Source: Paracoccaceae bacterium | Lineage (GTDB): Bacteria; Pseudomonadota; Alphaproteobacteria; Rhodobacterales; Rhodobacteraceae | Assembly (NCBI GenBank): GCA_018607905.1 | Contig: JABBAP010000006.1 | Span: 1-49,169, forward strand | Reading direction: 5' to 3' | Length of the DNA stretch: 49,169 bases | Part shown: positions 3,631 through 49,169 of the stretch, one piece after another | Layout: each line of letters starts with the position of its first letter | Numbering within the stretch: position 1 is the stretch's first letter | Translations under genes and position numbers: made by a program | Notes under the pieces: generated by a model | What the model was told of the DNA's origin: nothing | What the model saw: only the letters and a program-made list of their open reading frames with translations | Database searches by the model: none

Positions 3631-4443
3631 ATGACCAAAATGACCTATGCAGTAACAGGCGTCGCCAGCGGTATCGGCGCTGAACTAGCGCGTATCTTGA
3701 AAACACAAGGCCACCGCGTGATTGGTTTTGATATCCAAAAAACAGACAAAAACGTCGATCACTTTATCCATCTGGATCTGAACGATGCGACCAGCATCGC
3801 CAACGCGGCCACCGTAATTGGTGAACCACTTGATGGGTTGTGCAACAATGCTGGCCTGCCGCCGCGCGACGGTTTGGAAGAAGCAATCTTGCAAGTAAAT
3901 TTCCTTGGGACGCGGGCCTTTACCAATGCCATGATGCCGCACATGCGCAAGGATGCCTCGATCGTGAACATGGCCAGCCGCGCAGGGCAAAATTGGCGCG
4001 AAGGGCTAGAGCAGGTTAAACGGTTAGCACTGCTGTCAGACCCCAGCCAACTCGCTGCTTTTATTGCCTTGGAAGGGATTGATGCCACGCGCTGTTACAA
4101 CTTGACCAAAGAAGCCGTGATCCTGTGGACTGTCGCGGAATCAGAGGCGATGACCGCGCGCGGATTGCGGATCAACTCCCTTAGTCCCGCTGCGGTCGCC
4201 ACTGGCATTCTGGTCGATTTCCAAAAGGCATTTGGCGAAAAGGTGGCCATAAACGTTGCCCGTGCGGGCCGCGCTGGTGCGCCCGAGGAAATCGCCGAAA
4301 TCGCGGCTTTCCTGCTTTCGCCCGCCTCAAATTGGATCAAGGGCGCCGACATCGCCATTGATGGCGGTATAGCATCTTTCGTTCAATCAGATGTAATGGG
4401 CTTGGCCGCGCTGCGCTTGAAATCCGACAGGGATGTAACATGA
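3631..4443 (+). CDS. Short-chain dehydrogenase, coniferyl-alcohol/3-alpha-hydroxysteroid dehydrogenase-like
   Basis: This 270-residue NAD(P)-dependent oxidoreductase has the Rossmann motif TGVASGIG (residues 9-16) and catalytic Ser116, Tyr156 and Lys160 (CYNLTKEA). About 40 residues separate Ser and Tyr, far more than in typical SDRs. This insertion, and the 'KEAVILW' and 'NWIKGADIAIDGGIAS' segments, match the coniferyl-alcohol dehydrogenase (CalA)/3-alpha-HSD subgroup as I know it. ATG 3631 is chosen because GGAG lies at 3621-3624; longer in-frame starts would run into the regulator promoter. The stop overlaps the P450 start by four bases (ATGA at 4440-4443), so the two are coupled. A role in oxidising an aromatic alcohol is inferred. 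Confidence 0.85.
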   Translation: MTKMTYAVTGVASGIGAELARILKTQGHRVIGFDIQKTDKNVDHFIHLDLNDATSIANAATVIGEPLDGLCNNAGLPPRDGLEEAILQVNFLGTRAFTNAMMPHMRKDASIVNMASRAGQNWREGLEQVKRLALLSDPSQLAAFIALEGIDATRCYNLTKEAVILWTVAESEAMTARGLRINSLSPAAVATGILVDFQKAFGEKVAINVARAGRAGAPEEIAEIAAFLLSPASNWIKGADIAIDGGIASFVQSDVMGLAALRLKSDRDVT

Positions 4444-22888: not shown

Positions 22889-23563
22889 CTACTCGTCACC
22901 CGCAACACCATAAGACGGCGCCGCACGTGGATCGAGTGCGCGTTTCACGTAATCTGCCATTTGCGGCTTATAGACATCCCACGCCAAAGCGATTGCTTCA
23001 ATCGGGCACTCTTGCGTCCAATCACAGCGAAGATCTGCTGCAGGCCAAGAAACCTCGTCGCAAATTTGCATCCCAGCAGAATGGATTGGCCCTGCTTCGC
23101 CGCCCGCTGCAAGCCCTGCACGCATTGCTGCAATTAAACGATCACCAAGATGCCCAGGCGCCTCCTGAAAACCGTCAACCAACGCTTGCGGCACGTCCTC
23201 ATTTGCCAGCAGATTGCCAGCGGCAACAACATCTGCCCCATATGCGTGCGTCCAAACACCAAGAGAGTTTTGACCAGAATGGATCGCCGTGTTTCCGTTG
23301 CCATCAATTGCCAAAACTTGGCGGTATTCCAAAAACTGTGCTTGATCTTTGATGCCTGCAATCACTTCACCCGCAGACATGCCGCCTTGCATTAAATCCA
23401 GCGCGAACGGCCCTAAACGCGGGTCAGTAATATTCTGGCTCGCGACTGCGCCGACACCTGCGCGCGTATAGGCGCACCGTGCTGCAACGGCAGGAGAAGA
23501 GGAGGAAATTGCGACGCCAAACATGCCTGTCTCTGCGCATCGCGCGACCAATGAAAATGTCAT
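22889..23563 (-). CDS. DUF1028 family protein (Ntn-hydrolase-like)
   Basis: This 224-residue protein has the DUF1028 signature: the start 'TFSLVARCAETGMFGVAISSSSPAVAARC' (two parts), 'GAVASQNITDPRLGP', and 'AAGNLLANEDVP'. Members are related to Ntn-hydrolases and often occur with Rid proteins and amino-acid or pyrimidine catabolic genes; no activity has been established that I know. No signal peptide. It overlaps the upstream Rid-family gene by four bases (23560-23563), so the two are made together. Its operon lies behind the GlxA-type regulator gene on the same strand but with a separate promoter region between. Confidence 0.9.
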   Translation of the reverse strand: MTFSLVARCAETGMFGVAISSSSPAVAARCAYTRAGVGAVASQNITDPRLGPFALDLMQGGMSAGEVIAGIKDQAQFLEYRQVLAIDGNGNTAIHSGQNSLGVWTHAYGADVVAAGNLLANEDVPQALVDGFQEAPGHLGDRLIAAMRAGLAAGGEAGPIHSAGMQICDEVSWPAADLRCDWTQECPIEAIALAWDVYKPQMADYVKRALDPRAAPSYGVAGDE

Positions 23564-23976
23564 GAGGGGATCACCGCAGTTCCGTCAATTTCCACCAACC
23601 ATTCTGGCCGTGCCAACGCCTGAACAACCAAACCCGTAGAAACTGGATAAACGCCCTTAATGTATTCGCCCATCGTGCGGTACACATCTTCGCGGTGACG
23701 CACGTCCGTGATGTAAACCACGACCTTTACCAAATGCTCCATCTCGCCACCTGCTTCTTGAATCAATTGGCGAATATTCTGCATGACTTTGTGGGTTTGT
23801 TCCACAGGATCGTGGCTTTCGATATTTTTGGCATCATCCAGATTTTGCGGACACTGGCCGCGCAAATAAACTGTTTTTCCACCGTCAACCACAACAGCCT
23901 GACACAAATCATTGTCGAGGTTTTGTTCAGGATAAGTATCTGATGTGTTGAATTTGCGAATGCGTGTATGTGCCAT
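23560..23976 (-). CDS. Rid-family (RidA/YjgF-like) protein
   Basis: This 138-residue member of the Rid superfamily has the segments 'VVVDGGKTVYLRGQCPQN', 'VVVYITDVRHREDVYRTM' and 'WLVEIDGTAVI'. RidA itself hydrolyses reactive enamine/imine intermediates with the help of a conserved arginine. Here the segment that should hold that Arg reads PVSTGLVVQALARPEW, with Gly at the position, so deaminase activity of the RidA type is doubtful. It probably belongs to another Rid subgroup. It is first in an operon with the DUF1028 gene. Confidence 0.88.
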   Translation of the reverse strand: MAHTRIRKFNTSDTYPEQNLDNDLCQAVVVDGGKTVYLRGQCPQNLDDAKNIESHDPVEQTHKVMQNIRQLIQEAGGEMEHLVKVVVYITDVRHREDVYRTMGEYIKGVYPVSTGLVVQALARPEWLVEIDGTAVIPS

Positions 23977-35581: not shown

Positions 35582-36286
35582 CTAATGGCCGAAATATGCC
35601 TGCGCTAAACGCTCATCATCTGCCAATTCTGCAGGGGTGCCTTGCGCAGAAATATGGCCACTTTCCATCACATAAACTTTTTCGGCCAGCGTCATGGCAA
35701 AATTCGCATTCTGTTCAGTGATCACGACGGTCAATCCAAATTCACCGCGCAATCGGCGCAAAACTTCGGCGATTTCCAAACACACTTTCGGTGCTAACCC
35801 GATCGTCGGCTCATCCACCAACAACAGGCGCGGACTCGTCATTAACGCTCGCCCAAGCGAAACCATCTGCCGCTCCCCACCTGACTGCGTGGATGTTTCC
35901 TGGTCTTCTCGTTCGGCCAATCGCGGAAACAATTCGTGTATCATCTTCATGTTTTTTTCAATGTCATCACGTGCCGTATAACTTCCGACCAACAGGTTAT
36001 CGCGCACGCTCATGTAGGGAAACAGATTGAACCGCTCAGGCGCATAACCGATGCCCCTTTGCACCACATGCGCAGCCGTTTTTCCTACCAACGATGCACC
36101 ATCGAACCGCATATCACCTGTGGTTTTTGTCAGCCCCATAATGCTATCGAGCAGTGTGGATTTCCCCGCGCCATTTGCGCCGATCAACGCAATAGCCCCG
36201 CCCTCTTCCACATCAAATGAAACGCCATGCAAGGCTTGCGCTTTGCCATAAAACGCCGACAGGTTTTCAATTTCCAGAAATGCCAT
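35582..36286 (-). CDS. Branched-chain amino acid-type ABC transporter ATPase (LivF-like)
   Basis: This 234-residue ATPase is one of two powering a Liv-family importer. Walker A is GANGAGKS (36-43); 'GYAPERFNLFPYMSVRDNLLVG', signature SGGERQMVSLGRALM, Walker B LLLVDEPTIGLAP and 'ITEQNA' follow the LivF pattern, and all key residues are present. It starts on the last base of livG-like gene's stop region (36286) and is the last gene of the operon that runs from 40167. Substrate is set by the binding protein, not by this subunit. Confidence 0.92.
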   Translation of the reverse strand: MAFLEIENLSAFYGKAQALHGVSFDVEEGGAIALIGANGAGKSTLLDSIMGLTKTTGDMRFDGASLVGKTAAHVVQRGIGYAPERFNLFPYMSVRDNLLVGSYTARDDIEKNMKMIHELFPRLAEREDQETSTQSGGERQMVSLGRALMTSPRLLLVDEPTIGLAPKVCLEIAEVLRRLRGEFGLTVVITEQNANFAMTLAEKVYVMESGHISAQGTPAELADDERLAQAYFGH

Positions 36287-37017
36287 TACGCCTCTCCCAG
36301 ATAGGACGCGCGAACCGCCTCACTACTCATGACATCGCCGTATGACCCCTGTGCAACCATGCTGCCATAGTTAATCGCAATCGCCGTATCGACCAGTGGT
36401 TCCAGCGCTTTCAGATCATGACTAACAATCAAGAACGTCATGCCATCGGATCGCATTTTTTGAACCAACCCGCTGATCATCGCGATTTCAGCAACCGTCA
36501 AGCCCGCGAACACTTCGTCCAACAGCATCACCTTGGGATCAGTCGCCATTGTTCGTGCCATTTCCAGCTTGCGCAGATCCCCCATCGACAATTCTGCAGG
36601 GGTGCGATCTAGGTCGTTTTCGCTAAACCCGACCGCCATCGCCAGTTCCAATTCGCGATCTCGGTTCGGCCCCTTAAGGATCATCCCAAACACACTGTCA
36701 GGCATCAAGCCAACGCGAATATTCTCAGCCACACTCATCTCTGCAAACGGGCGCGGCACCTGATACGTTCGGCTGACGCCACGGCGAATACGCGCAGGCG
36801 TGGTCATCTTTGACAGCTCTTCACCATCCAGCATGATCGACCCCGAAGTTTGGCGATGCTCCCCCATCACAAGGCTAAACACTGTCGTTTTTCCTGCGCC
36901 ATTTGGCCCGATCAAACCAACCGATTGGCCAGGTTCAACCGTGAATGACAAATCATTTGTCGCCGTCAGCCCACCAAATTTCTTTACCAAATTTGTGATT
37001 TTTAAGGACGCACTCAT
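36286..37017 (-). CDS. Branched-chain amino acid-type ABC transporter ATPase (LivG-like)
   Basis: This 243-residue ATPase has Walker A GPNGAGKT (37-44), the LivG-type 'RRGVSRTYQVPRPFAEMSVAENI', signature LSMGDLRKLEMARTM, Walker B VMLLDEVFAGL and the H-loop VSHDLKA. It overlaps LivM by four bases (37014-37017). The signature LSMGDLRK varies from the LSGGQ consensus, as is frequent in LivG/UrtD-like proteins. Forms a heterodimer with the LivF-like subunit. Confidence 0.92.
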   Translation of the reverse strand: MSASLKITNLVKKFGGLTATNDLSFTVEPGQSVGLIGPNGAGKTTVFSLVMGEHRQTSGSIMLDGEELSKMTTPARIRRGVSRTYQVPRPFAEMSVAENIRVGLMPDSVFGMILKGPNRDRELELAMAVGFSENDLDRTPAELSMGDLRKLEMARTMATDPKVMLLDEVFAGLTVAEIAMISGLVQKMRSDGMTFLIVSHDLKALEPLVDTAIAINYGSMVAQGSYGDVMSSEAVRASYLGEA

Positions 37018-37955
37018 GACCGCGCCCTGACCTTGGACCAGCCTTGGTTGATGATCTCATAAATCCCTTTGGGCTGGTACATGTACAACAACAACGCCAC
37101 CCCGCCATAAATGAAATACCGCTCTGCGCCGGGCAGATAAGGCCGCAAGTATTCCAATAAAAATGTTAGGAAAAACGCACCGATAATCGGCCCAATCGTG
37201 GTGGATGCGCCACCAATCAGCGCCGCCACAATGATCGTGAACACAAAGTTGATATCGAACAACGCACGCGGCGCTATTGACCCCAGATAATGCACGTAAA
37301 ATGCCCCTCCGAGGCCTGCAATCAACGCGCTCAACAGAAACGCAAACAGCTTGAGTCGCGTTACAGACAATCCAGATCCCTTTACCGCCTCTTCGTTCAT
37401 TCCAATCGCAGACAGCGCCGTGCCGATCCGCGTGCGCATCAAAAGCCAGACACAAAACGCGACAATCACCATCAAGGTCAGCGACATGTAATACCCGTTC
37501 ACCGCGCCCCGCGTCAGCGTCGGCAGGCCCGACATGCCCCGCGTTCCACCTGTCAAATCGGGGCGGATGACCTGAACAAGTTGATAGATCAACTCCATAT
37601 ATGCCAGCGTAATCAGCGCGAAATAACTGCCTTTGATGCGCAAGGCTGGCAACACCACCAGTAACCCAGCAATCATCGTAACGATAACGGCAATAGGGAT
37701 CGACAACTCCACAGGCACATCAAACCGCTTGGTCAGAATGGCCGTAGTATAGGCCCCAATCCCGATCAAAAACGGATGCCCAAAGCTCACGTAACCTGTA
37801 CGCCCTGACAAAACATCCCAACTGATCGCAAACACAGCCAAGAAGTTCGCAAAAATGAAAATCCGTAGCGTACCCTTGGATACCATTTCAGGCATCAGAA
37901 ACATAAATACGACAAACGCAGCCCACGCCGCAAAGTGATACCAACGCAGTTCCAT
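37014..37955 (-). CDS. Branched-chain amino acid-type ABC transporter permease (LivM-like)
   Basis: This 313-residue inner-membrane permease has about nine hydrophobic segments and the family pattern 'SGRTGYVSFGHPFLIGIGAY' and 'ALIGGASTTIGPIIGAFFL' (each in part). ATG 37955 is chosen because GAGGA lies eight bases upstream and it follows the LivH-like stop by one base; the frame stays open for seven further codons upstream. It pairs with the LivH-like protein to form the membrane channel. Confidence 0.93.
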   Translation of the reverse strand: MELRWYHFAAWAAFVVFMFLMPEMVSKGTLRIFIFANFLAVFAISWDVLSGRTGYVSFGHPFLIGIGAYTTAILTKRFDVPVELSIPIAVIVTMIAGLLVVLPALRIKGSYFALITLAYMELIYQLVQVIRPDLTGGTRGMSGLPTLTRGAVNGYYMSLTLMVIVAFCVWLLMRTRIGTALSAIGMNEEAVKGSGLSVTRLKLFAFLLSALIAGLGGAFYVHYLGSIAPRALFDINFVFTIIVAALIGGASTTIGPIIGAFFLTFLLEYLRPYLPGAERYFIYGGVALLLYMYQPKGIYEIINQGWSKVRARS

Positions 37956-37956
37956 C

Positions 37957-38808
37957 CTACAATTCCTCTCGACCAAAGAGGCCTTTGGGCCGTAAAATCA
38001 AAACCCCGATAATCAGGGCCATCGTCATCACACCGCGCAATTCTGGCGCTATAAAAGCAGAGGTCATGACTTCCATAAATCCAATGATATGGGCAACAAT
38101 TAGCGTGCCAATAATCGAGCCAATGCCACCCACAATCACGACGGCCACGGCGATAATCAGTGGCGCAACCCACATGCCGGGATACAACTGCGTGTAGCTG
38201 GCAAAAAACACCCCCGCGACGGCACCCAAGGTGCCAGAAATGCCCCAAGTAATCATGTTGATCCGGTCCGCATCAATGCCCGAAATCGCAGCGCCCTTCG
38301 GGTCCATCGAAACGGCCTGCATCGCGCGACCCGTGTGTGTTTTTCGCACAAAGAAATACAGCGCGATTAGAATGACCCAACTGGCAACAGCCGCAAACAG
38401 GTTAGAATATGGAACAGCCGCACCCGCAATCCGCTCCACACCTGGAATGATCGGAAGCAAGATTTTCGAGCTGTCGCCAAACATTAAAACTACCCCAGCC
38501 TGCAACACTACCGCAAGGATAAGCGAGGAAATTTCAACGGCGACATGATCGCCTTTTAACGGTTTGACCAGCAGCTTGAATTTCAAAATACCCATCGTAC
38601 AGCCCAGAATGGCAGCCAGCAAAACACCCGCAATTTTCGGCATGCCAAGCGTTTGCGCGAAGTAGAAATAGGTATATCCGCCAATCAGCAGATAGGCGCC
38701 GTACGCAAGGTTCAGGATACGTCCGACGCTAAAGATAAGCGTGAACCCCATCGCAATCAGCGCGTATAGCCCGCTTAAAAGCAGTCCTTGGATCAGGATT
38801 TGCGTCAT
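37957..38808 (-). CDS. Branched-chain amino acid-type ABC transporter permease (LivH-like)
   Basis: This 283-residue permease has about eight membrane helices, the start 'GLLLSGLYALIAMGFTLIFSVGRILNLAYGAY' (in pieces), and the conserved 'SIIGTLIVAHIIGF' near the C-terminus. It ends with 'RPKGLFGREEL', a standard LivH tail. A hairpin (38841-38866) lies between it and the upstream binding-protein gene. Function: translocation channel with the LivM-like partner. Confidence 0.93.
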   Translation of the reverse strand: MTQILIQGLLLSGLYALIAMGFTLIFSVGRILNLAYGAYLLIGGYTYFYFAQTLGMPKIAGVLLAAILGCTMGILKFKLLVKPLKGDHVAVEISSLILAVVLQAGVVLMFGDSSKILLPIIPGVERIAGAAVPYSNLFAAVASWVILIALYFFVRKTHTGRAMQAVSMDPKGAAISGIDADRINMITWGISGTLGAVAGVFFASYTQLYPGMWVAPLIIAVAVVIVGGIGSIIGTLIVAHIIGFMEVMTSAFIAPELRGVMTMALIIGVLILRPKGLFGREEL

Positions 38809-38877: not shown

Positions 38878-40167
38878 TTATTTCTTTACCCAGCTTGGCA
38901 AAGTAAACGTCGTTGTCGCGAATTCAGGTGGGTAAACCACCCCGACGCTTCCGTCTTCTTTCCACTGAACCACAACCATCGAAGGTGCCGCATCTTCATA
39001 GGGTGCTGTCAGATCGAACAGCGCGTTATGGGGGTAGGTGCGGCCTGTTACTGGTTCGACCGTATCTTTGTCCCAGAACCCGTAACGCAACACCAACTTG
39101 TCATCCTTTTTCAGCGTTAGGTCTTGCTTTTCCATCGCAGCGGCCCATTTTTTCACGTCTTTGAAACCACCAGCTTCTTCTGCAGCAGCCATCGCTTGTT
39201 TCAGGCCATAATAAGCGTTGAAACCGTTGAAATGTGGGATTGCAGGGCGCGACGAATATTTCGCCTTATAGGTTTTCACGAATGCTTCGGATGTAGCGTC
39301 AAGCGCGTAACCAACTGATGGAACAGGCGACAATGTGGAAATTCCGCCGCCTTGGCCGCCCGTATCTTCCCAGTATTCCATACCGAGTGCGGATACGTTC
39401 ACGCCTGTCATACCCATAGGCACTTGCAGCTTCACATATTGGCTGGAAATCACTTGCGAGTTCACCGAACTGACCTGATAAATAAAGTCCGCTCCAGATG
39501 CTTCTGCTTTCGAAAACAGCGGTGCGAAATCGTTGGTGTTCACGTCATAGGTGATGATTTCTTTCACTTCGATCCCAGCAACTGGCCCCAAAGCCTCGGT
39601 CACTAGCCCCGTGATCGCGCCACCGAATGCGGTGTCTTCGGCCAAAATAACAACACTCTCCCAGCCCATTTCTTTCTTCAGAACATCCGCACCAAAATTG
39701 ATGTACAGCGTGGCCAAAGCCTCGTCCGACGCGATGTTCATGAAATATGGCGCCATCGTTTCAGGGTCTTCGATGACCATGTCGATGATACCGATGTAAG
39801 ACGTCCAGGTATCCAGTGTCGGGATTTGGAATTCCTGCATCCGTGGCAACCAACCGAGTGTTACATCGTCGATGGAACCAGAAATGATGAAATCGACTTC
39901 TTCGCTTTCGGCCAAATATTCATAAGCTTTTACGCCTTCAGTGACGTCTTCGCCGGTATCCGCAGACACCAGAACGATTTTCTCGCCCATTAGGCCGCCT
40001 TTGGCGTTCAATTCTTCGATGGCGATAGTTGCGCCGCGCAATGTGGACAGGCCGGTATCGGATGACAATGATCCGATGAAGCCGACTTTGATATCTGCAA
40101 AAGCAGCCGAGCTGAGCAAAAGCGTGCTCAATGCTGCCGTTGAAAACAGAGTTTTCGTAAGTTGCAT
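38878..40167 (-). CDS. Liv-type ABC transporter substrate-binding protein
   Basis: This 429-residue periplasmic binding protein has a Sec signal peptide (MQLTKTLFSTAALSTLLLSSAAFA; cleavage near residue 24). The mature start 'DIKVGFIGSLSSDTG' and 'IAIEELNAKGGLMGEKIVLVSADTGEDV' (in pieces) belong to the type I leucine/amide/urea family. ATG 40167 is preferred for its GGGAGAA ribosome site and the signal peptide. The length is longer than LivJ/LivK, nearer to amide- or urea-type binding proteins. It opens the transporter operon; a 14-bp palindrome shared with the BMC operon lies about 50 bp before its start, so the ligand may be the BMC substrate or a precursor (inference). Confidence 0.92.
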   Translation of the reverse strand: MQLTKTLFSTAALSTLLLSSAAFADIKVGFIGSLSSDTGLSTLRGATIAIEELNAKGGLMGEKIVLVSADTGEDVTEGVKAYEYLAESEEVDFIISGSIDDVTLGWLPRMQEFQIPTLDTWTSYIGIIDMVIEDPETMAPYFMNIASDEALATLYINFGADVLKKEMGWESVVILAEDTAFGGAITGLVTEALGPVAGIEVKEIITYDVNTNDFAPLFSKAEASGADFIYQVSSVNSQVISSQYVKLQVPMGMTGVNVSALGMEYWEDTGGQGGGISTLSPVPSVGYALDATSEAFVKTYKAKYSSRPAIPHFNGFNAYYGLKQAMAAAEEAGGFKDVKKWAAAMEKQDLTLKKDDKLVLRYGFWDKDTVEPVTGRTYPHNALFDLTAPYEDAAPSMVVVQWKEDGSVGVVYPPEFATTTFTLPSWVKK

Positions 40168-40217
40168 TAGATTCTCCCATTTGGTTAAAACGGTGCCGTC
40201 TCCCCAGCTCCGTCGTA

Positions 40218-40231
40218 TACTGTATACAGTA
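40218..40231. promoter_or_regulatory. Palindromic operator upstream of the Liv-type importer
   Basis: TACTGTATACAGTA is a perfect 14-bp palindrome about 50 bp before the binding-protein start, flanked by another GTATAC repeat unit (40215-40220). Its match at 47035-47048 differs at two of 14 positions. Sites of this form are typical of GntR-family regulators (family knowledge); no such gene is in the window. Confidence 0.7.
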
Positions 40232-40286
40232 CACATCGCAAGATTCGTTGCAACAGTGGATTTTTGGGACTTTTTGCGAAGATGGC

Positions 40287-40697
40287 CTACCTAAGGGCAA
40301 TATTTCCGTCTTCGTCGTGAATGATCGCATCCACATCGATCTCAACCATCATACCGGGTTGGGTCAGCCCAGCCTCGACCCCCGTCATCACCGGATCAAT
40401 CCCCTTGAACACCTCGCCGTGGGCTTTAACCAAACCACCCGCCACAGAAATATCCGTAACATAGGCCCGCGTGCGCACCACGTGGCGCATCTCGGCCCCA
40501 ACTTCACGCAATGCTTCTTCGATGCGACCAAGAATATAGACGCTCTGCGCATAACAATCGTTCGGTGCGTGCAATTTTCCAGACGGTTCAATCGCCGTGG
40601 TTCCCGCAATGTAAACAAACGGCCCCACACGTTTGGCCCGTGAATAACTGCCGATTTCTTCAAACCGCCCGCCAGAATTCCACTTGCGCAGGGTCAT
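40287..40697 (-). CDS. Rid-family protein, last gene of the BMC operon
   Basis: This 136-residue Rid-superfamily protein has the segments 'YSRAKRVGPFVYIAGTTAIEPSGK' (in part), 'VRTRAYVTDISVAGGLVKAHGEVF' and 'GMMVEIDVDAII'. The usual RidA arginine position reads DPVMTGVEAGLTQPG and has no Arg, so it is more likely of a non-RidA subgroup. Its ATG overlaps the malate-dehydrogenase-like stop by four bases. Rid proteins remove or channel reactive enamines and imines; in a compartment operon fed by amine oxidation this would be useful (inference). It has no visible targeting peptide. Confidence 0.88.
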   Translation of the reverse strand: MTLRKWNSGGRFEEIGSYSRAKRVGPFVYIAGTTAIEPSGKLHAPNDCYAQSVYILGRIEEALREVGAEMRHVVRTRAYVTDISVAGGLVKAHGEVFKGIDPVMTGVEAGLTQPGMMVEIDVDAIIHDEDGNIALR

Positions 40698-41872
40698 AGC
40701 CCAAGCCGCGTGCGAATGGCCTCTGCGGCACCGTGCAGCGCGTCGGTCTCATCAGGTGTCAGCCGCAGTTCTTCAACCCCAACCAGCCCAGTTTGCCCCA
40801 AATGCGCAGGCACACCGAGCACCACACCAGAAACCCCGTATTCCCCTTCCAGCATTACCGACGCTGGAACAGGCCCAACCTTGGCCCCGCGAATATGATC
40901 CATCAATTCAATCGAGGAATGCGCAGGTGCAATCGTGGCCGAGCCAGATTTTTTCAACGCAACAACTTGTCCGCCACCCGTAATCGCATCTTTCACACAA
41001 TCCGCAATTTGATCCGCCGACAAGAACCGTTCCAACGCGCGCCCTTTGATCCGCGCCAAAGACGTGATCGGCGCCATCTCATCGCCGTGCGACCCCAGCG
41101 TAATTGCGGACACATCGGCAGGTGTAACACCCGCCGCCATCGCCAGCGCGTTGCGGAAACGGCTGCTGTCAAGCGTGCCCGCCATCCCCAAAACCCGTTC
41201 GCGCGGAAACCCAGTGGCCCGCAGCATTTCTACCGTCATTTCATCGAGCGGGTTGGTCACAACAATCACAATCGCATTCGGCGCGTTCGATTTTATCGCC
41301 TCTGCCGCTGCATGAATAACCCGTGTATTCACATCAATCAGATCGGCCCGCGTCATACCCGGCCCCCGCGCACGCCCAGCGGTCACAACAACGACATCTG
41401 CGCCAGCAACCATCGCCAAATCTTCGCCGCCAACGCACCGTGCCCGCACACCCGTAATCCCGCTTGTGTGGTTCAAATCGAGCGCCGTCGCTGCCGCCAT
41501 TCCAGGCGCAATATCAATCAGCGTGATTTCATCCGCCATATCCGCCATAGCTGCGAGATGCGCGATATTGCCACCAACACCACCTGCGCCAACCAGCGCA
41601 ACCTTGGCGAACCGACGCACATTTCGCTGTGTCACAGGCTTGGGCGCTGCCCATTTCGCGCCGCGCCGATATAGCCCACGCCGCATGGCGGTGTTGCCGT
41701 CCGTTCGTGCCAAGCTCGGTTTTTCCAGTGGCCCATCGACAAGGCGAATCCCCAACCGCGCCGCCGTTTCTCGTGCTAAATCCGTAACGATGTCATCAGG
41801 CAGGATTTCGAACACAATGCGGCTGCGTTGCCTTGCTTGTTCGATATGTTCTGTTCCGATGACACGCGACAT
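40694..41872 (-). CDS. Malate/lactate dehydrogenase-like enzyme with an N-terminal extension
   Basis: The C-terminal 300 residues of this 392-residue protein are an NAD-dependent 2-hydroxyacid dehydrogenase. Visible are GAGGVGG (95-101), 'ITLIDIAPGMA' with the NAD-selecting Asp, Arg169 and Arg175 in GRARGPGMTRADL, Asp235 and Arg238, and catalytic His262 in GSHGDEM. Arg169 corresponds to the malate-type specificity residue. About 88 extra residues precede the core: 'GTEHIEQARQRSRIVFEI' and 'DDIVTDLARETAARLGIRL' resemble short adaptor segments seen at the ends of BMC-associated enzymes, followed by a basic linker. It overlaps the BMC-T gene by one base. It may regenerate NAD inside the compartment in place of an alcohol dehydrogenase (inference). 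Confidence 0.86.
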   Translation of the reverse strand: MSRVIGTEHIEQARQRSRIVFEILPDDIVTDLARETAARLGIRLVDGPLEKPSLARTDGNTAMRRGLYRRGAKWAAPKPVTQRNVRRFAKVALVGAGGVGGNIAHLAAMADMADEITLIDIAPGMAAATALDLNHTSGITGVRARCVGGEDLAMVAGADVVVVTAGRARGPGMTRADLIDVNTRVIHAAAEAIKSNAPNAIVIVVTNPLDEMTVEMLRATGFPRERVLGMAGTLDSSRFRNALAMAAGVTPADVSAITLGSHGDEMAPITSLARIKGRALERFLSADQIADCVKDAITGGGQVVALKKSGSATIAPAHSSIELMDHIRGAKVGPVPASVMLEGEYGVSGVVLGVPAHLGQTGLVGVEELRLTPDETDALHGAAEAIRTRLGL

Positions 41873-42495
41873 TACTCTGTCCGTCCGTCCACAGCTTCAA
41901 TCGCTTTGGTCGCTGCTTCAACCGCTGTTTGAACCGAATTTTCGGACCCAGAAATAAACAACCGCCCAAAACGTCCAACCGCGCGAACCTCGACCATGTC
42001 AATCTCTGCAGATTTCTCGGCCTCATTTGCGGCAATCGAAATATAGGCCGCTGGCGCACATTCGATAATCCCCAGCGTTTGCCCCGGAACCAACAACGAA
42101 CCCTTGCGCCATTTGTTCAACAATTGCGCCTGATACGGCTCAACGCTCGTGATAATCTGCGTGTTCGTAATCGCAGGCTTCAACCGATCTGACATCGTCG
42201 CGCCCAACTCGGACAACATCGCATCGCGTGCAGCCGTCACTTCTGCATTGCTTGGGGAGCGCAAGATAAAGAACCCAAATTCCCGCTCAACCATTTGCGT
42301 CGTTGCTTCAACGCTCGACGCTTTCAACGCACGGTCAATCAGTGAAAACACGCCGTTGCCCGGTGCAAATTCCCCGATCAGAACGGTGTCACCCGACAAA
42401 GGCACAGATCCCTGCACAGTTGCCCCGTTGTAAGCGGCAAATTTTGGCTGCAAATTGTCGATTTGCATCAACGCCCGAATAGTAATTCCACTCAT
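41872..42495 (-). CDS. BMC shell protein with tandem BMC domains (BMC-T trimer)
   Basis: This 207-residue protein holds two BMC domains. The first (about 5-95) is divergent ('PGNGVFSLIDRALKASSVEA', 'EFGFFILRSP'). The second (about 130-205) is clear: 'GQTLGIIECAPAAYISIAANEAEKSAEIDMVEVRAVGRFGRLFISG' (in pieces) and 'VQTAVEAATKAIEAV'. Such proteins form pseudohexameric trimers in the facets of the shell, often with a gated pore. Overlaps both neighbours. It is the only tandem-domain shell protein here. Confidence 0.94.
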   Translation of the reverse strand: MSGITIRALMQIDNLQPKFAAYNGATVQGSVPLSGDTVLIGEFAPGNGVFSLIDRALKASSVEATTQMVEREFGFFILRSPSNAEVTAARDAMLSELGATMSDRLKPAITNTQIITSVEPYQAQLLNKWRKGSLLVPGQTLGIIECAPAAYISIAANEAEKSAEIDMVEVRAVGRFGRLFISGSENSVQTAVEAATKAIEAVDGRTE

Positions 42496-43871
42496 TCACC
42501 GTACTCCTCATAGATGTCGCGCCAAGGTCGGCTTTGATAGGCCACGCGCTTAATATTGATCAGGTGCAACGCGGTCACATTGTCCGATGTGATTGATCCC
42601 GACCACGTTCCCGTGCCCAACATGAAAGACGGCTCCAGATCGGTGGAATATCCCATGCCACCCATGATCGCGGGCGTATTCACCAACACCCGCCCTGTCG
42701 GAACAGCGGCAAATTGCGCCACAATCGCAGGATCGTTTGAATGCAGACAGGCAGAATGCCCCCAGCCCTCAAACTTTGCGATATTGATCGACATCTCGAT
42801 GCCGTGCTGGCTGTCGCGCGCCTCATAGAACGCCAGTACAGGGTTCAGTTTCTCAGCACTTAACGGGCGATGCCAACCGATTTCGGTTTCATTCGACACC
42901 AAACAACGGGTTTTCGGCGGAATAGAAAACCCAGACAATTCCGCCAAAACCTGCGGGCTTTGCCCAACACGCTCAGGGTTCATCGCTTGCTTGCCAGTAA
43001 AAATAACCTTCGCCAAACGATCGCTTTCCGCAGGGGTGCAGAAATATGCCCCGCGCATTTTCATTTCTTGGCGCAGCTCGCGGGCAATTTCTGGATCGGC
43101 AATCACCGCTTGTTCGGAAACACAGGCGGTTCCGTAATCAAAACACTTTGACGTGACGATCATTTCAGCCACTTCACCGATCTCGCCTGCCATGGATTTA
43201 TGCACGTAACACGGCACATTGCCCGCGCCCACGGCGAGCGTCGGCTTGCCGCTGGAATAGGCCGCCTTAACCATCGCAGGGCCACCCGTCGCCATAACAA
43301 CAGAGGTGCGTTTGTGCTTCATCAATTCCGCCGTGCCCGCAATCGTTACTTGGTCCAAACACTGGATCAACCCTTTGGGCGCACCCATCTGTTCGGCCAC
43401 ATTCGCCATCACTTTGACAGTCGCCATGCCTGATTTAATGCCGCGGGGATGGGGCGCACAGACAATCGCATTGCCCGCTTTTACAGCCGACAAAATCTTG
43501 AAAATAATCGTCGAGGTCGGGTTCGTCACAGGCACCAATGCCGCCACAACACCCATCGGCTCGCCAAACGCCGCAATCTTGGTCGCGTCATCGCGCCACA
43601 ACATGCCCAGCGTCGTTACATCACGCAGATAATCGGCAACCGACAGTGCGTTAAACAGGTTCTTCACCCGTTTATCATCGACATTTCCGTAACCCGTTTC
43701 GTCTACCGCAATTTGTCCCAGCTCTTTGGCAACAGGTTCAATCGCGCGCGCCATCGCATCCACAATCGCGTCCACATGCGCAGGATCCGTGTCCAGAAAT
43801 TTCTGATACGCTGCAAAGGCAGATTCCGCAGATCGGCGTGCAGCCGCGATGGATTTCAGATCAGCATCCAT
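42492..43871 (-). CDS. CoA-acylating aldehyde dehydrogenase (PduP/EutE-like)
   Basis: This 459-residue enzyme converts an aldehyde plus CoA and NAD to an acyl-CoA. It has 'ETGYGNVDDKRVKN', 'VPVTNPTSTIIFKILSAVKAGNAIV' (in pieces), 'GAGNVPCYV', and the catalytic Cys250 in SKCFDYGTACVSEQ; it matches the PduP/EutE/AdhE N-domain family. ATG 43871 is used because it lies one base from the previous stop and starts right at the helical domain; seven more codons upstream are open. I see no N- or C-terminal encapsulation peptide of the PduP type. It is the core aldehyde-processing enzyme of the compartment. Confidence 0.94.
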   Translation of the reverse strand: MDADLKSIAAARRSAESAFAAYQKFLDTDPAHVDAIVDAMARAIEPVAKELGQIAVDETGYGNVDDKRVKNLFNALSVADYLRDVTTLGMLWRDDATKIAAFGEPMGVVAALVPVTNPTSTIIFKILSAVKAGNAIVCAPHPRGIKSGMATVKVMANVAEQMGAPKGLIQCLDQVTIAGTAELMKHKRTSVVMATGGPAMVKAAYSSGKPTLAVGAGNVPCYVHKSMAGEIGEVAEMIVTSKCFDYGTACVSEQAVIADPEIARELRQEMKMRGAYFCTPAESDRLAKVIFTGKQAMNPERVGQSPQVLAELSGFSIPPKTRCLVSNETEIGWHRPLSAEKLNPVLAFYEARDSQHGIEMSINIAKFEGWGHSACLHSNDPAIVAQFAAVPTGRVLVNTPAIMGGMGYSTDLEPSFMLGTGTWSGSITSDNVTALHLINIKRVAYQSRPWRDIYEEYGE

Positions 43872-43872
43872 A

Positions 43873-45060
43873 TTATGTCCGTCCCGTCGCAATAGCGTCC
43901 ATCGCGGAACGCGCTGTATCTATGTCCGTTGTCGTGATGCCGATTGTATCAAGCCGTCGCCCCGCAGCGGCTACATCAGCCCCTAGTACAGCACTTGCCA
44001 AAGTAATCATCGCTTGCGTTACAGGCAGATCAATTCCCGCCATTTTAGCCGCCGACATCAGCGGCACCAGCGATCCAATAGTCCCATCGCGCAACAAGGC
44101 CTTCGCGCCATCTTGATCAGGGACAGGCCGCGTGGCCGCCCCCTTCACAACACCCGCATGGATTTCGATCAACGCATCTGCATCCGCCAGTCCACGCACC
44201 CCAAAGGCCTTAGCCACCGACGTGCGCTCTGCTGCCAATTGTTCAATCAAATTGCGCTGCTCATCACCGATCAGCGCCGCAAAATTCTGATTGTCTGCCA
44301 ACGGCATTCCACCCATCGGAACAGGCACTGCACCTGAGCCAAGCGCAGGGCCGCTCATCAATAATGCAGGAAATTCGACCAACGCGGAACCATCAGCAAA
44401 CCCGGATGCCAGAACACTGTCCTTCGCATCTAAATTCGGCAAATACCGTGCCAAACCAGCCAACACGTTGCGACGCCCACTTGGTAACGTCGCTGCGGCA
44501 ACAGGCCCACAAGGCGTAAGGTTCAAAACCGCGCCCTCGGCCCGTACAAAATACGGCAGACCTTGCGCCTCAACGATTGTCACGTCTGCGGTGCAACCAC
44601 CAATGCGCAAAAACCAAGCAGTTTCTAACGCGCCAAGGGATCGACCAGGGGCCAAAACCAGCACCTGCCCATCAGACAGATGATCGGCCAAAACCATCGC
44701 ATAGGTTCGTTGCTTGTGCACAGGGCCCGTCAGGAAAATCACATCTGCATCTTTCACAGACGCATCCAATTCCGCTGTCGTTTGGATCGCATTGCTCGCA
44801 CGATCAACCTGATACGTGCCAACAGGCCCAGCGCCGCGCAACGACACACCGCTGGAGGAACGCATAGCCTCCAGCTCCGTCCCGTACGCCGAAAACAGCG
44901 AAACATTCGCGCCTTCAGCCAAACACAACGCCGCAATCAGCCGCGCATCTTCGCCGCCACCCAGAACCGACACGCGATCATAGGACGGCACGCTGCTTGG
45001 TTGTTTGGACACAGACGATTTAGACGCCGCATCAGCGAATTCTGCAAACGCATTGGTCAT
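43873..45060 (-). CDS. Opine-dehydrogenase-like NAD(P) protein with an encapsulation-peptide-like N-terminus
   Basis: This 395-residue protein has a Rossmann domain starting at about residue 29 (VSVLGGGEDARLIAALCLAEGANVSLFSA, in two pieces) and the C-terminal all-helical domain of opine/octopine dehydrogenases and related NAD-binding proteins ('GFADGSALVEFPALLMSGPAL', 'GSLVPLMSAAKMAGID'). The residues before it form an amphipathic helix (TNAFAEFADAASK) and a Ser/Pro-rich linker, as in known BMC cargo peptides. The His of the NPxxH motif of opine dehydrogenases is not visible: the region reads VEFPALLMSG. A changed reaction or a non-catalytic role is therefore possible. Lies between the BMC-H and aldehyde dehydrogenase genes. 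Confidence 0.82.
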   Translation of the reverse strand: MTNAFAEFADAASKSSVSKQPSSVPSYDRVSVLGGGEDARLIAALCLAEGANVSLFSAYGTELEAMRSSSGVSLRGAGPVGTYQVDRASNAIQTTAELDASVKDADVIFLTGPVHKQRTYAMVLADHLSDGQVLVLAPGRSLGALETAWFLRIGGCTADVTIVEAQGLPYFVRAEGAVLNLTPCGPVAAATLPSGRRNVLAGLARYLPNLDAKDSVLASGFADGSALVEFPALLMSGPALGSGAVPVPMGGMPLADNQNFAALIGDEQRNLIEQLAAERTSVAKAFGVRGLADADALIEIHAGVVKGAATRPVPDQDGAKALLRDGTIGSLVPLMSAAKMAGIDLPVTQAMITLASAVLGADVAAAGRRLDTIGITTTDIDTARSAMDAIATGRT

Positions 45061-45089
45061 GGATACTTCCCTTCGCCAGCTAGAACAAT

Positions 45090-45386
45090 TTAACCAGCGA
45101 TGCCTTCAAGAATGGCTTCCAGCTCGTCGTGTGGGCGTGCGATCACGTGCACAGACACAACTTCGCCGATTTTGTTTGCAGCTGTCGCGCCCGCATCTGT
45201 TGCGGCTTTAACCGCACCAACTTCGCCACGTACAAGCGTGGTCACCAAACCGCCGCCTGCTTTTGTTTGTGCAACAATTGCAACGCTGGCTGCTTTGACC
45301 ATCGCATCTGCCGCTTCGATAGACGCGACAAGGCCACGTGTTTCGATCATACCAAGGGCTGTTTGGCCCGCTGCTGGTTTCGCCAT
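45090..45386 (-). CDS. BMC-H hexameric shell protein
   Basis: This 98-residue single-domain shell protein carries the BMC fold from '[27 protein letters not shown]' (in pieces) through '[24 protein letters not shown]'. It forms hexamers that tile the shell facets; the pore-lining loop is in AGGGL. ATG 45386 is supported by a strong AAGGAGAG ribosome site; a longer open frame upstream has no such site and adds a non-family prefix. Its strong ribosome site agrees with a major shell component. It is the only BMC-H in the window. Confidence 0.96.
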
Positions 45387-45417
45387 GAGTTCTCTCCTTA
45401 AGAGGTTGTTATTTGAG

Positions 45418-45687
45418 TTATTTTGCGAGGGTGACTTGATCCACCACCGCGATAATTGCTGCATTTATGGGCGCACCCGATGTTCCAGCTGCCATACGAG
45501 CCGCTGAACCAGTTGTCATTAACACCGTGTCACCAACGCCAGCGCCCACCGTATCGGCGGCCACTTCGGCGGGTGTTACAACTTTGCCCGCGCCATCAAT
45601 GATGTCACACACCAGCAAGGTCGCCCCCACAAGCTGCGCGTCTTTTGCTGTCGCTACGACAGTTCCTGTTACGCGGGCCAGTTTCAT
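45418..45687 (-). CDS. BMC-P pentameric vertex protein (EutN/CcmL-like)
   Basis: This 89-residue protein forms pentamers that cap the icosahedral vertices of the shell. The family pattern is complete: the start '[30 protein letters not shown]' (in pieces), '[22 protein letters not shown]' and '[12 protein letters not shown]'. The stop of the glutamine-synthetase-like gene overlaps its ATG by one base (TGATG). It is the only vertex gene here. Confidence 0.95.
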
Positions 45688-46994
45688 CAGAAGTTACCCA
45701 TGTAACGATCACGCTCTAATTGTGTGACCTGGTTGTTGATAAAGTCGTTGTAAAAGCCCAACTCGCGCTCGCACATCTGGCAATAGATTTCCCACTGCGT
45801 TTCGCCCATCAGCTCTTTCAGCCAATCAGACCCGCGCGCCAGCTCAATCGCGGCGTCCAAACCCGCAGGGAGCGGCTGCGCCCGTTCAGATTCATACGCA
45901 TTGCCCAACTCACACTCATCAGGCTCGATGCTCTGTTCAATACCGTCCAAGCCCGCTGCGATATCCGCTGCCAGCAACAAATACGGGTTCGCATCTGCGC
46001 CTGCATCGCGCTTTTCAATGCGGGTAGATGCATCTGATCCTTGGATCACGCGCAAACCAACTGTGCGATTATCCAATCCCCACGCGTTGTTAATCGGACA
46101 GAAAGTATAGGGCTGGCGACGGCGATAACCATTCACTGTTGGCGAACCTAAAACAGAGGTTTCCGCCATCCGTTTCTGCAATCCACCAACAAAATGCTGT
46201 CCAGCTTTGCTCAGCTTTCCACCATCAGCAAAAACATTCTTGCCGTCTTTCCACAGTGAATAATGCGTGTGAAACCCGTTGCCGCTTTCCTCCAAGAAAG
46301 GCTTCGCCATGAAGGTCGCTTTGTAACCGTGCGCCGCAGCCAATTGTTTTACCAATGTGCGGAATTCAACCGTACGATCCGCAGATAACATCGCCTCGCC
46401 GTAGCGAATGTTTACCTCTACTTGACCAGCGGCATATTCAGGGTTCGATTGTTCAATCGGTATCCCATATTCGTTGATCAGATGGCGGATTGGCCCAAGC
46501 ACATGCTCCAGCTCCGCCGCACGATCAAGGCCGTACACACCGATCCCTTTATCTTTTGGCAGGTTCGTTTCTGGATCGAGCAGATAAAACTCCAACTCTG
46601 TTCCAACCTGCACTTCATATCCCAGTGCCGCTGCACGTTCTAACTGACGCTTCAAAACATTGCGCGGATCAATGGGCAACTCGCTATGATCCATTGCCTC
46701 AGAACGCGCCATACACATCGCAACGCCTGGCTCCCAAGGCAACTCGACCGGCTGTGTCATCGGGAACATATGGAAATCAGGGTACCCGTTTTCAAAGTTC
46801 ACATAAGGCGTGTCCCAGACATCGCAGGTCATATCGATCGCAAAAAGTGCCATCGAATAAGCGTTACCATTCTTACAGATACTATCCCAATGGGTTGCTG
46901 GAATGCGTTTCCCCCGCATGATTCCACACATATCCGCAAGGCCCATAACAACCGTATGCGTGCCTTCTGGCAACTTAAACTCTTGATTAGCCAC
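45687..46994 (-). CDS. Glutamine-synthetase-like ligase (PuuA/gamma-glutamyl-amine synthetase type)
   Basis: This 435-residue enzyme has the catalytic fold of glutamine synthetase: VGTELEFYLLD (metal-binding Glu), 'NPEYAAGQVEVNIRYGEAM', 'ATFMAKPFLEESGNGFHTHYSLW' (in pieces), 'NRTVGLRV' and the C-terminal 'RIEKRDAGADANPYLLLAADIAAGLDGI'. The N-terminal beta-grasp part is present. Rather than ammonia, members of this branch join glutamate to an amine (PuuA, GlnA3/4-like) using ATP. It is the first gene of the BMC operon, 40 bp behind an operator-like palindrome. True nitrogen-assimilating GlnA is unlikely: wrong context and divergent active-site loops (NAWGLDNRT instead of YENRTA). Confidence 0.88.
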   Translation of the reverse strand: MANQEFKLPEGTHTVVMGLADMCGIMRGKRIPATHWDSICKNGNAYSMALFAIDMTCDVWDTPYVNFENGYPDFHMFPMTQPVELPWEPGVAMCMARSEAMDHSELPIDPRNVLKRQLERAAALGYEVQVGTELEFYLLDPETNLPKDKGIGVYGLDRAAELEHVLGPIRHLINEYGIPIEQSNPEYAAGQVEVNIRYGEAMLSADRTVEFRTLVKQLAAAHGYKATFMAKPFLEESGNGFHTHYSLWKDGKNVFADGGKLSKAGQHFVGGLQKRMAETSVLGSPTVNGYRRRQPYTFCPINNAWGLDNRTVGLRVIQGSDASTRIEKRDAGADANPYLLLAADIAAGLDGIEQSIEPDECELGNAYESERAQPLPAGLDAAIELARGSDWLKELMGETQWEIYCQMCERELGFYNDFINNQVTQLERDRYMGNF

Positions 46995-47026: not shown

Positions 47027-47064
47027 AAACTGTATTCTGTATACCGTATCCATAAATACAGTTT
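47027..47064. promoter_or_regulatory. Operator region upstream of the BMC operon
   Basis: TTCTGTATACCGTA (47035-47048) matches the perfect palindrome before the Liv-type importer at 12 of 14 positions and lies about 40 bp before the ligase start. It is enclosed by a perfect 10-bp inverted repeat, AAACTGTATT (47027-47036) and AATACAGTTT (47055-47064), giving several CTGTAT half-sites. GntR-type control of the BMC operon is inferred. Confidence 0.7.
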
Positions 47065-47105: not shown

Positions 47106-47208
47106 GTTTCGCGAAAACTTCGAAATGTGTGCGTTTCGCGAAACACACACTCTTTCAGGAGTAGATGAGCGTTGCAACGAACCCGACAGACAAACCGAAA
47201 TTCGCGAA
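47106..47208. promoter_or_regulatory. Three TTCGCGAA palindromes at the start of the amine-oxidase-like gene
   Basis: TTCGCGAA occurs at 47108-47115, 47135-47142 and 47201-47208. The second is part of a perfect 12-bp palindrome, GTTTCGCGAAAC (47133-47144), flanked by GTGT/ACAC. The first two lie upstream of the oxidase start and the third just inside it. Possibly operators for another regulator; the spacing of the first two is 27 bp. Confidence 0.45.
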
Positions 47209-48338
47209 ACGTAGTTGTAGTCGGCGGCGGAATAGCCGGTTCCATGACTGCACTACATTTACAGCGCCGCGGCGAACAGGTGACGTTGATCGACCGTTGG
47301 GAACCAGGCCACCCACGCGCCGCGTCCTCTGATTACAATCGCGTCATCCGCGCCATTTCTGGGCGCGACGAATTTTATACTCGCTGGGCACGGGAAAGCC
47401 GTACACGTTGGTTAGAATTACAGGCCGAAACGGGTCAAAACCTCATGTACGAATGTGGCGCCCTGATCCTAGCCACCAAAGGCCACTGCGATTGGGAAGA
47501 TGCGACCTCTGAAACCTTCGACCGGGTCGGCGTCCCATATTACAAATTCTCAAAGCAAGACATCCAACAACGGTTCCCGCAGTTCAAAGTGGATGAAATT
47601 GACTATGCTTTGTTTGAGCCTGAAGCAGGGCTATTGATGGCGCACCGCTGCGTAATCACCACGCTCGATTTGTTCAGAAAAGAAGGCGGCATCGTCAAAC
47701 GTGGCATCGTCACCACAGACGCAACTGAACGCCCCATGCTGGATGGCAAACCCCTAGAAGCAGACGTCATCATCGTGTCCACAGGCGCGTGGATGTCGGA
47801 AATGTTCCCAAAAACCATCAAGCCAATCACTACGATCATGGGCATCAACGTACTTTACACCTCTACGCCCGATGGTTCGGATCAGTACGACATGGAAAAC
47901 ATGCCCTGCTGGATCGACCACGGCCAGGGCTCGTTTGGCATTCCATCTTCCGAAGGTTCAGGCGTCAAAGCCGCGGTTGTGATCCCCAACACACCGATTG
48001 ATATCAACAACGACGAACGCTTGATCGAAAAACAATCACTCGCCAAAACCCGCCAATACATCCGCCACCGCCTGCCCGGCCTAGAAGGACAGCGCGTTGT
48101 GGACAGCAAATTCAACCAAGTCATCCTCACGCCGGACACGCATTTCATCGTGGACTGGCACCCCCAACACGAGAACGTCCTATTGGCGGGCGGCTGTTCA
48201 GGGCACCTATTCAAACACGGGCCGATGTTTGGTGATTTCACAGCAGGCGTGGCCGTGAAAGACTACGGCACAGCAGATCGTTTTAAGATCGCAGGTCGTC
48301 GGAAATTATCCCCAAAAGAGAGCCCAAGTGGCCGTTAA
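47165..48338 (+). CDS. FAD-dependent amine oxidase-like protein (DAO/sarcosine-oxidase/PuuB-like)
   Basis: This protein of about 390 residues belongs to the DAO family: NVVVVGGGIAGSMTALHLQRRG binds ADP of FAD (in pieces), and 'TPDTHFIVDWHPQHENVLLAGGCSGHLFKHGP' is the C-terminal signature. The cysteine that holds FAD covalently in monomeric sarcosine oxidase appears as Asn (FNQVILTPD), so FAD is probably not covalent there. Start is ambiguous. AGGAG (47157-47161) stands before ATG 47165, but that frame (MSVATNPTDKPKFAK) is one base out from the enzyme frame. A TTG at 47172 is in frame. Dropping one C after the FAK codons joins them as KFAKVVVVGGG. Divergent from the BMC operon, so probably part of the same pathway. 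Confidence 0.82.
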
Positions 48339-48909: not shown

Positions 48910-49169
48910 CTAGGAACCCGCCAGATTTTCGCGAAAAAACGTAGCCACTTCAGCTGCCATCAAATCCTGCTGCACATCAGACGCTTTGAAACTCGCCAAA
49001 GCCGCGTCCATATCTGCGTCATTGGGAAACCCATCGGCTCCGCGCGCACGCTCAAAGATATCCGCGATGTTGCGTTCCCAATGTTCTGGGTGAAACTGCA
49101 CACTTGCAGCAGGAAAATCATATTCCAACGCACCCACAGGGCAATAAGGCGCAGACGCGGTTACTTTTG
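48910..49169 (-). CDS. Class I glutamine amidotransferase-like protein, C-terminal end (partial)
   Basis: The frame is open through the window edge, so the N-terminus (with the nucleophile Cys) is missing. The visible 85 residues contain 'APYCPVGALEYDFPAASVQFHPEH', in which the FHPE triad His/Glu are the class I amidotransferase pair, and a helical tail of about 55 residues. It could be a gamma-glutamyl hydrolase (PuuD-like) or a general GMP-synthase-like amidotransferase; the 'ALEYDFPA.SVQFHPE' context looks to me more like the latter. The stop is at 48910-48912. Confidence 0.78.
   Translation of the reverse strand, partial: KVTASAPYCPVGALEYDFPAASVQFHPEHWERNIADIFERARGADGFPNDADMDAALASFKASDVQQDLMAAEVATFFRENLAGS

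Follow-up and report, generated by a model that had tools for sequence, protein, structure and literature searches.

A microcompartment operon with a three-protein shell in a Paracoccaceae bacterium and its predicted link to glutamate-bound amines

Under the published naming rule, as worded in the text available, a metabolosome without the complete core of phosphotransacylase and alcohol dehydrogenase is said to have an incomplete core (MIC). In the accessible text of Axen (2014; PMC4207490), the MIC1 type consists of a shell with an aldehyde dehydrogenase (AldDH) and a lactate/malate-type dehydrogenase as its core, and no phosphotransacylase. The reactions of GmaS, N-methylglutamate synthase (NMGS) and N-methylglutamate (NMG) dehydrogenase in the N-methylglutamate pathway are described in the portion of PMC6237917 consulted, and the gamma-glutamylation of ethanolamine is drawn for C. 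salexigens and S. coelicolor in the accessible part of a review (PMC9397018). Here we analyse 49,169 nucleotides (the window) of contig JABBAP010000006.1 from a Paracoccaceae bacterium (assembly GCA_018607905.1), in which an earlier note, made from the sequence alone, had reported an eight-gene bacterial microcompartment (BMC) operon. By the naming rule the locus is a metabolosome with an incomplete core, and we propose that it probably serves an amine bound to glutamate as a first step.

Domain matches for all eight genes (Table 1) establish that the operon is real. Neighbouring genes overlap by 1 or 4 bp at four of the seven junctions, with a 1-bp gap at one and gaps of about 30 bp at two. 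The shell comprises one BMC-P, one BMC-H and one BMC-T protein and is minimal, as the earlier note had stated: the 95.9%-complete genome encodes two PF00936 proteins, the BMC-H and BMC-T of the operon, and no others. The NCBIfam model closest to the BMC-T is that of CcmP (206 bits, below the cut-off of 340). Shell genes of both the BMC-P and BMC-H type thus stand in one locus with an AldDH of the BMC type, which clusters with the AldDHs of other BMC loci. Of the enzymes that the earlier note had failed to find, alcohol dehydrogenase is indeed missing among the eight genes, as are B12-dependent and glycyl-radical enzymes, for which no genome-wide search was made. PduL-type phosphotransacylase (PF06130) was matched in 0 of 8 genomes; other phosphotransacylase families are absent from the eight genes and were not searched genome-wide.

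The BMC-H protein was used to scan genome contigs, which gave at least 592 matching stretches, of which 586 were confirmed and the best 80 kept. Ten of these 80 (L004-L012 and L025) contain the operon, in records titled Rhodobacteraceae, Sulfitobacter, Rhizobiaceae group, Tepidamorphus, Hyphomicrobiales, Granulosicoccaceae and Thioalkalivibrio; L012 is the locus of a sequenced Sulfitobacter, S. sediminilitoris JBTF-M27. In the other 70, which were not annotated gene by gene, blastp of open reading frames (ORFs) at 1e-30 turned up no opine-type protein; through the choice of ORFs the same list also missed the opine-type gene of L012, which was seen there separately. Together with the window and four further loci, the ten make up the 15 that were compared. 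The order of the eight genes, whose conservation the earlier note had proposed as a check, is unbroken in 12 of the 15, and contig ends cut the remaining three. With the opine-type profile, for which at most four candidates were scored per genome, 5 of 390 genomes in the order sample were matched at E <= 1e-60, the own genome counted, and the own genome alone in the class sample (1/385) and the phylum sample (1/398) at E <= 1e-40. Since carriers exist in the Hyphomicrobiales/Rhizobiaceae group and the gammaproteobacteria, the latter two samples miss rare carriers.

The earlier note had found no signature B12 or glycyl-radical enzyme. In this its picture is incomplete: feeder genes exist outside the operon, most of them past the window edge (mgsABC and a GATase gene), with a flavin oxidase gene (DAO) on the opposite strand. 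The final 55 bases of the window are identical to the first 55 of contig C29, which carries the rest of the class-I GATase, then mgsC- (474 aa), mgsB- (230 aa) and mgsA-like genes and a divergent gene for a GntR regulator. These Mgs copies stay under the cut-offs of the NCBIfam models that they match, and MgsC, MgsB and MgsA are 88, 80 and 84% identical to their counterparts in L007. The Mgs set of L007 includes the class-II GATase, GXGXG and Glu_synthase domains, the three-subunit composition that typifies the N-methylglutamate pathway; two of the three were found in L008. A canonical methylated-amine cluster, gmaS-mgsABC-tmm, is present on contig C71 (L089), with GmaS at 644 bits (cut-off 469.6) and Tmm trimethylamine monooxygenase at 823 (cut-off 675), so that the shell-linked Mgs is a second set; its MgsC is 52-53% identical to the canonical copy. 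An ortholog of this MgsC (87-100% identity) occurs in 14 of the 15 operon genomes, and in the fifteenth a contig edge carries part of an mgsA gene (70% over 131 aa). In the order sample, MgsC was matched at E <= 1e-165 in 6 of 390 genomes, i.e., the five with the operon and one other, G289. The gene for the transporter substrate-binding protein follows the Rid gene in 11 of the 15 loci; it lies elsewhere in the L009 genome, and L004 and L011 end earlier. In the L010 genome it is on another, possibly adjoining contig; a reading of that transporter as detached was rejected, as both contigs stop at the junction and may mark an assembly break.

These genes are tied to the shell operon by an operator. 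The palindrome GTATACNGTATAC, often in a 20-bp tandem, is found at three promoters, namely those of GntR/mgsA, of the divergent oxidase and ligase (DAO/GS), and of the ABC transporter. In the own genome (3.17 Mb), six forward GTATACNGTATAC sites were found with up to one mismatch, which form three tandem pairs, every one at these promoters, and the reversed-pattern control gave none. By chance, 0.18 sites would be expected per 49 kb at two mismatches (one fixed 13-mer, 50 Markov-1 sequences); there is one isolated weak match, at window position 14032. The operator also accompanies mgs genes placed elsewhere (L119, L120) and a transporter placed elsewhere (L127). All three transcription units are probably governed by the GntR regulator through GTATACNGTATAC; we infer its binding from the position of its gene, with GTATACTGTATACAGTATAC as the candidate target sequence. 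A chance neighbourhood of unrelated genes is ruled out by the conserved order and the common operator. Operators also stand ahead of an SBP_bac_5-type transporter gene in genomes G178 and G1109 (L129 7405 and L130 6000; proteins 56% identical), which suggests, from sequence, that the regulon includes a second uptake system. The substrate could not be deduced from the transporters, because two families are involved (Peripla_BP_6 in the locus, SBP_bac_5 behind the operator) and neither is decisive. An extra operator (L104 4976) precedes a small gene (116 aa) between the GATase and DAO genes, whose L007 counterpart matches DUF6455.

In the proposed pathway, the ABC transporter would import the amine, and the glutamine synthetase (GS)-like ligase would couple it to the gamma-carboxyl group of glutamate in an ATP-driven reaction. 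The MgsABC-like enzyme would transfer the amine to 2-oxoglutarate, giving an N-substituted glutamate. Oxidation of this compound at its side carbon would yield glutamate and an aldehyde, through either or both of two enzymes, the opine-type enzyme, whose N-terminus is lumen-targeting-like, and the sarcosine-oxidase-like flavoenzyme; the Rid protein would assist imine hydrolysis. The acylating AldDH, inside the one-P/one-H/one-T shell, would convert the aldehyde to acyl-CoA. The malate-type dehydrogenase would re-oxidise NADH by an oxaloacetate/malate shuttle. As there is no PduL, CoA and acyl-CoA would likely be exchanged through the gated double BMC-T, and a gated BMC-T(dp) may let large cofactors through according to the text available of PMC8217296.

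The malate-type dehydrogenase gives a match to PRK06223 over the cut-off. In the alignment to solved malate dehydrogenases (MDHs) its Arg motif is of the malate type, and this Arg is kept in 9 of 9 sequences, which makes the enzyme a likely NAD recycler, as the earlier note had suspected. The profile of its N-terminal domain (window ~41710-41872) matches six proteins of other, unrelated BMC loci (L022, L044, L051, L053, L066 and L083) over the inclusion threshold, with E values from 8e-5 to 7e-3, and a seventh (L063) below it; this is perhaps a shared cargo-targeting domain. A EutQ-type domain was considered for the same region and dropped, as the hhalign result (probability 2.2, P 0.022) was suggestive only and the profile did not pick up E. 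coli EutQ at E <= 10 although that protein was in the search set. By eye, the N-terminus resembles Methylibium and Rhodococcus proteins. Lactate/malate-type dehydrogenases 37-38% identical to the one described here occur in Bacillales BMC loci (L040, L051, L054, L061, L063 and L077), so this enzyme type recurs in other shells. A second Rid-like gene, which adjoins a DUF1028-looking gene, was noticed by eye at 22889-23976 of the window.

For the AldDH, the closest NCBIfam model is that of the acetylating acetaldehyde dehydrogenases (TIGR02518, 495 bits, below the cut-off of 620); no encapsulation peptide was seen on this protein. In a tree that left out ORFs of the loci without a phmmer match at 1e-20 or shorter than 400 aa, and L004, which ends before the gene, the AldDH clade is sister to the MIC1-like enzymes with 100/100 support; the closest AldDH relatives found, those of the Methylibium and Rhodococcus plasmid loci, are 52% and 49% identical. 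Because the AldDH groups with acetaldehyde-type enzymes, ethylamine, which would give acetaldehyde, is the simplest candidate substrate. Among solved structures, 5dm3, presumably from Chromohalobacter, is closest to the ligase. This relationship, together with the ethanolamine gamma-glutamylation given for C. salexigens in the accessible part of the review (PMC9397018), makes ethylamine and ethanolamine the leading candidates, and other short amines are also candidates. The ligase falls under the cut-offs both for ordinary glutamine synthetase and for GmaS and was accepted as neither. A putrescine-type PuuA-B-C-D pathway was rejected, the gamma-glutamylputrescine synthetase model giving 208 of 650; to our knowledge, Mgs genes are not part of that pathway.

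A shell-less relative, the cluster of G289 (L118, G289:C72:138000-157500), carries the operator before mgsA and before Rid, mgsABC, and products identical to those of the locus at 49% (GntR), 85% (MgsC), 67% (GS) and 59% (Rid). PF00936 is unmatched in the G289 genome. An acyl-CoA ligase (PRK12583, 833.6 bits vs 832), an aldehyde dehydrogenase and an FAD oxidase replace the shell and the acylating AldDH, and G289 seems to convert aldehyde to acid and then to acyl-CoA where the others employ the shell. This aldehyde-to-acyl-CoA module is the strongest indication that an aldehyde is the end product of the upper pathway, and G289 provides a natural control, with apparently the same pathway and no shell.

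It is nearly an even question whether the locus is already listed, function unassigned, among MIC2-MIC7 of the 2021 catalogue, so that the functional reading alone would be new. In the text consulted (Sutter 2021, PMC8217296), MIC2-7 are reported with an AldDH and no obvious signature enzyme, and 'MIC12/BUF23', read by us as MIC1, MIC2, BUF2 and BUF3, is one BMC-T(dp) clade; the position of the AldDH clade next to the MIC1-like enzymes and the presence of the locus in a sequenced Sulfitobacter fit such a listing, whereas the main text of the catalogue contains no list of genes that includes GS or opine dehydrogenase and has 0 occurrences of 'glutamine' and 'malate'.

A possible but less probable alternative concerns the source of the aldehyde: it might be freed by the flavin oxidase, the opine-type enzyme being a luminal NADH sink that joins an amino acid and a 2-oxo acid, or having another role, so that there would be two NAD recyclers. 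Opine dehydrogenases act as NADH sinks in invertebrates. The DAO gene diverges from and adjoins GS in 13 of the 14 loci that reach it and was not called in L010. The sarcosine oxidase Arg and Lys positions, the carboxylate-binding Arg/Lys and the O2-activating Lys of monomeric sarcosine oxidase, are kept in all 13 sequences of an alignment without rows from L010 and L005; the aligned stretch of DAO has no counterpart of the Cys that binds the flavin covalently in that enzyme. However, this alignment reveals no obvious targeting extension on DAO, and it is the opine-type gene, not DAO, that sits in the shell operon; its product has the opine dehydrogenase fold and an amphipathic N-terminal helix with F5 kept in 11 of 11 sequences.

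Our preferred reading, the metabolosome for a glutamate-carried amine, has several observations against it. In shell-less G289 a flavin oxidase is present, although from a different subgroup, and none of the candidates scored matched the opine-type protein at 1e-60, which favours the flavoenzyme as the aldehyde source. The catalytic His of the nearest solved relative is missing from the aligned opine-type protein (His202 of 1bg6 is the catalytic His of opine dehydrogenase) and L008 has Cys in the place of Asp297, so the opine-type reaction is uncertain. The AldDH is devoid of the usual C-terminal extension. The ligase scores 243 of 469.6 bits with the GmaS model TIGR03105, far under the cut-off, so its amine may well differ from methylamine. 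Neither L008 nor L011 yielded the operator, with a weak remnant at the 4-mismatch level at the L008 GS/DAO promoter, and in eleven further genomes 70 forward sites stand against 48 reversed controls, so nearly equal that only clustering at the locus is informative; by reading, 57 of the 70 are in the locus or separately placed modules (among them two in the shell-less cluster and two on the transporter-bearing contig of the L010 genome), and 2 lie before the SBP_bac_5 transporter.

It is quite improbable that the Mgs-like genes and GS merely assimilate ammonia or handle nitrogen, with the metabolosome acting on some aldehyde unrelated to them. Genes with GS and glutamate synthase domains commonly serve nitrogen metabolism, and the BMC-locus GS is outside the GmaS equivalog, but the common operator and co-occurrence in 14 of 15 genomes tie Mgs and GS to the shell operon, the shell-less relative retains ligase, Mgs and Rid with an aldehyde-to-acyl-CoA module, and four PF00120 genes are present in the genome in addition to the BMC-locus ligase and GmaS.

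Table 1. Positions of the operon, its operators and the adjoining genes in the window
Feature	Position	Strand	Evidence and remarks
GS-like ligase (predicted gamma-glutamyl-amine synthetase)	45687..46994	-	PF00120 303 bits
BMC-P vertex protein	45418..45687	-	PF03319 89 bits
BMC-H shell protein	45090..45386, ORF reaching 45464	-	PF00936 87 bits; AGGAG ahead of ATG at 45386
Opine-dehydrogenase-fold protein; N-terminal amphipathic helix and linker, encapsulation-peptide-like	43873..45060	-	fold, alignments
CoA-acylating-type AldDH, without C-terminal extension	42492..43871	-	PF00171; TIGR02518; tree, termini
BMC-T double-domain CcmP-like shell protein	41872..42495	-	PF00936; NF053796; nearest PDB entry 4ht5 (CcmP)
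Malate-type dehydrogenase, ~88-aa N-terminal extension	40694..41872	-	PF00056/PF02866; PRK06223 over cut-off
Rid-family protein	40287..40697	-	PF01042
Operator, tandem GTATACNGTATAC-like, GS/DAO promoter	47032..47051	.	motif search
Operator, tandem GTATACNGTATAC-like, ABC-transporter promoter	40215..40234	.	motif search
FAD oxidoreductase (DAO), monomeric-sarcosine-oxidase-like	47172..48338	+	PF01266; nearest PDB entry 1l9c
ABC transporter substrate-binding protein (Peripla_BP_6)	38878..40236, likely start near 40167	-	PF13458; adjoins operon in relatives
ABC transporter permeases and ATPases, same unit as substrate-binding protein	35582..38808	-	ORFs; homologs after substrate-binding protein in relatives
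Class-I GATase, C-terminal part	48910..49169	-	55-bp contig-end overlap; continues on contig C29 (L088 3-500); homologs in relatives

Elsewhere in the window, a 719-aa protein (4440-6599) resembles, by eye, a fusion of a P450 with reductase and ferredoxin domains.

Taken further, the locus would exemplify a new metabolosome principle: an amine tethered to glutamate, a toxic aldehyde that the signature enzyme, an N-alkylglutamate dehydrogenase of opine-dehydrogenase fold, frees inside the shell, a malate/oxaloacetate NAD shuttle, no CoA-recycling enzyme, a three-protein shell and one dedicated operator. We regard this full version as rather doubtful. We know of no characterised metabolosome that uses glutamate-bound amine intermediates, and a literature search of open-access papers found, among those listed, none uniting microcompartments with GmaS/N-methylglutamate chemistry or opine dehydrogenase. 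Many catalogued microcompartments have no identifiable aldehyde source; the regulon evidence offers a likely one here and predicts amine breakdown via glutamate-bound intermediates. The locus would also let one test whether a malate-type enzyme replaces alcohol dehydrogenase in a shell without PduL, and its one-P/one-H/one-T composition provides a small shell for engineering.

The earlier interpretation, a metabolosome with different cofactor recycling, is partly supported. A core of shell, AldDH and lactate/malate-type dehydrogenase without phosphotransacylase has a precedent in MIC1, as far as PMC4207490 describes it. The MIC1 comparison loci, those of Methylibium and the Rhodococcus plasmid, were matched to the published description in this analysis. 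They share BMC-P, BMC-H, AldDH and malate-type dehydrogenase in similar order, with a BMC-domain gene between in Methylibium, as well as an AldDH without C-terminal extension. The alcohol dehydrogenase, EutJ (MreB-like) and HAD genes of the MIC1-like loci are replaced here by the GS-like ligase, the opine-type enzyme, Rid, mgsABC and the flavin oxidase. The alcohol dehydrogenase, MreB-like, hydrolase and phosphatase genes that mark MIC1 are absent from the present locus. RMM (amino-2-propanol) metabolosomes are likewise amine-linked and GntR-regulated, with no obvious NAD or CoA recycling, but the route proposed for them proceeds via an aminotransferase, and GS, Mgs and opine-type genes are unmentioned in the accessible text (PMC4207490). 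The GlnA4-type cytosolic gamma-glutamylation of ethanolamine also employs a GS-like ligase acting on an amine, as predicted here, whereas the review, in the part available, keeps it apart from microcompartments and names no Mgs or shell (PMC9397018). From N-(1-D-carboxylethyl)-L-norvaline dehydrogenase and the opine dehydrogenases, the opine-type protein differs in the loss of the catalytic His, in its targeting-like N-terminal helix and in its genomic context. With the N-methylglutamate pathway (gmaS-mgsABC-mgdABCD), as outlined in the text available of PMC6237917 and PMC5520151, the locus has in common a ligase and a three-subunit Mgs followed by a predicted oxidation of an N-substituted glutamate; the ligase here is under the GmaS cut-off, the opine-type and sarcosine-oxidase-like enzymes stand nearby instead of MgdABCD, and a shell and an acylating AldDH are present. 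Since their defining features were tested and do not apply, the locus is neither MIC1 nor a canonical N-methylglutamate pathway, and the reaction order that we propose is modelled on the latter as published (PMC6237917, in the portion consulted), departing from it in the terminal oxidation and in the presence of a shell.

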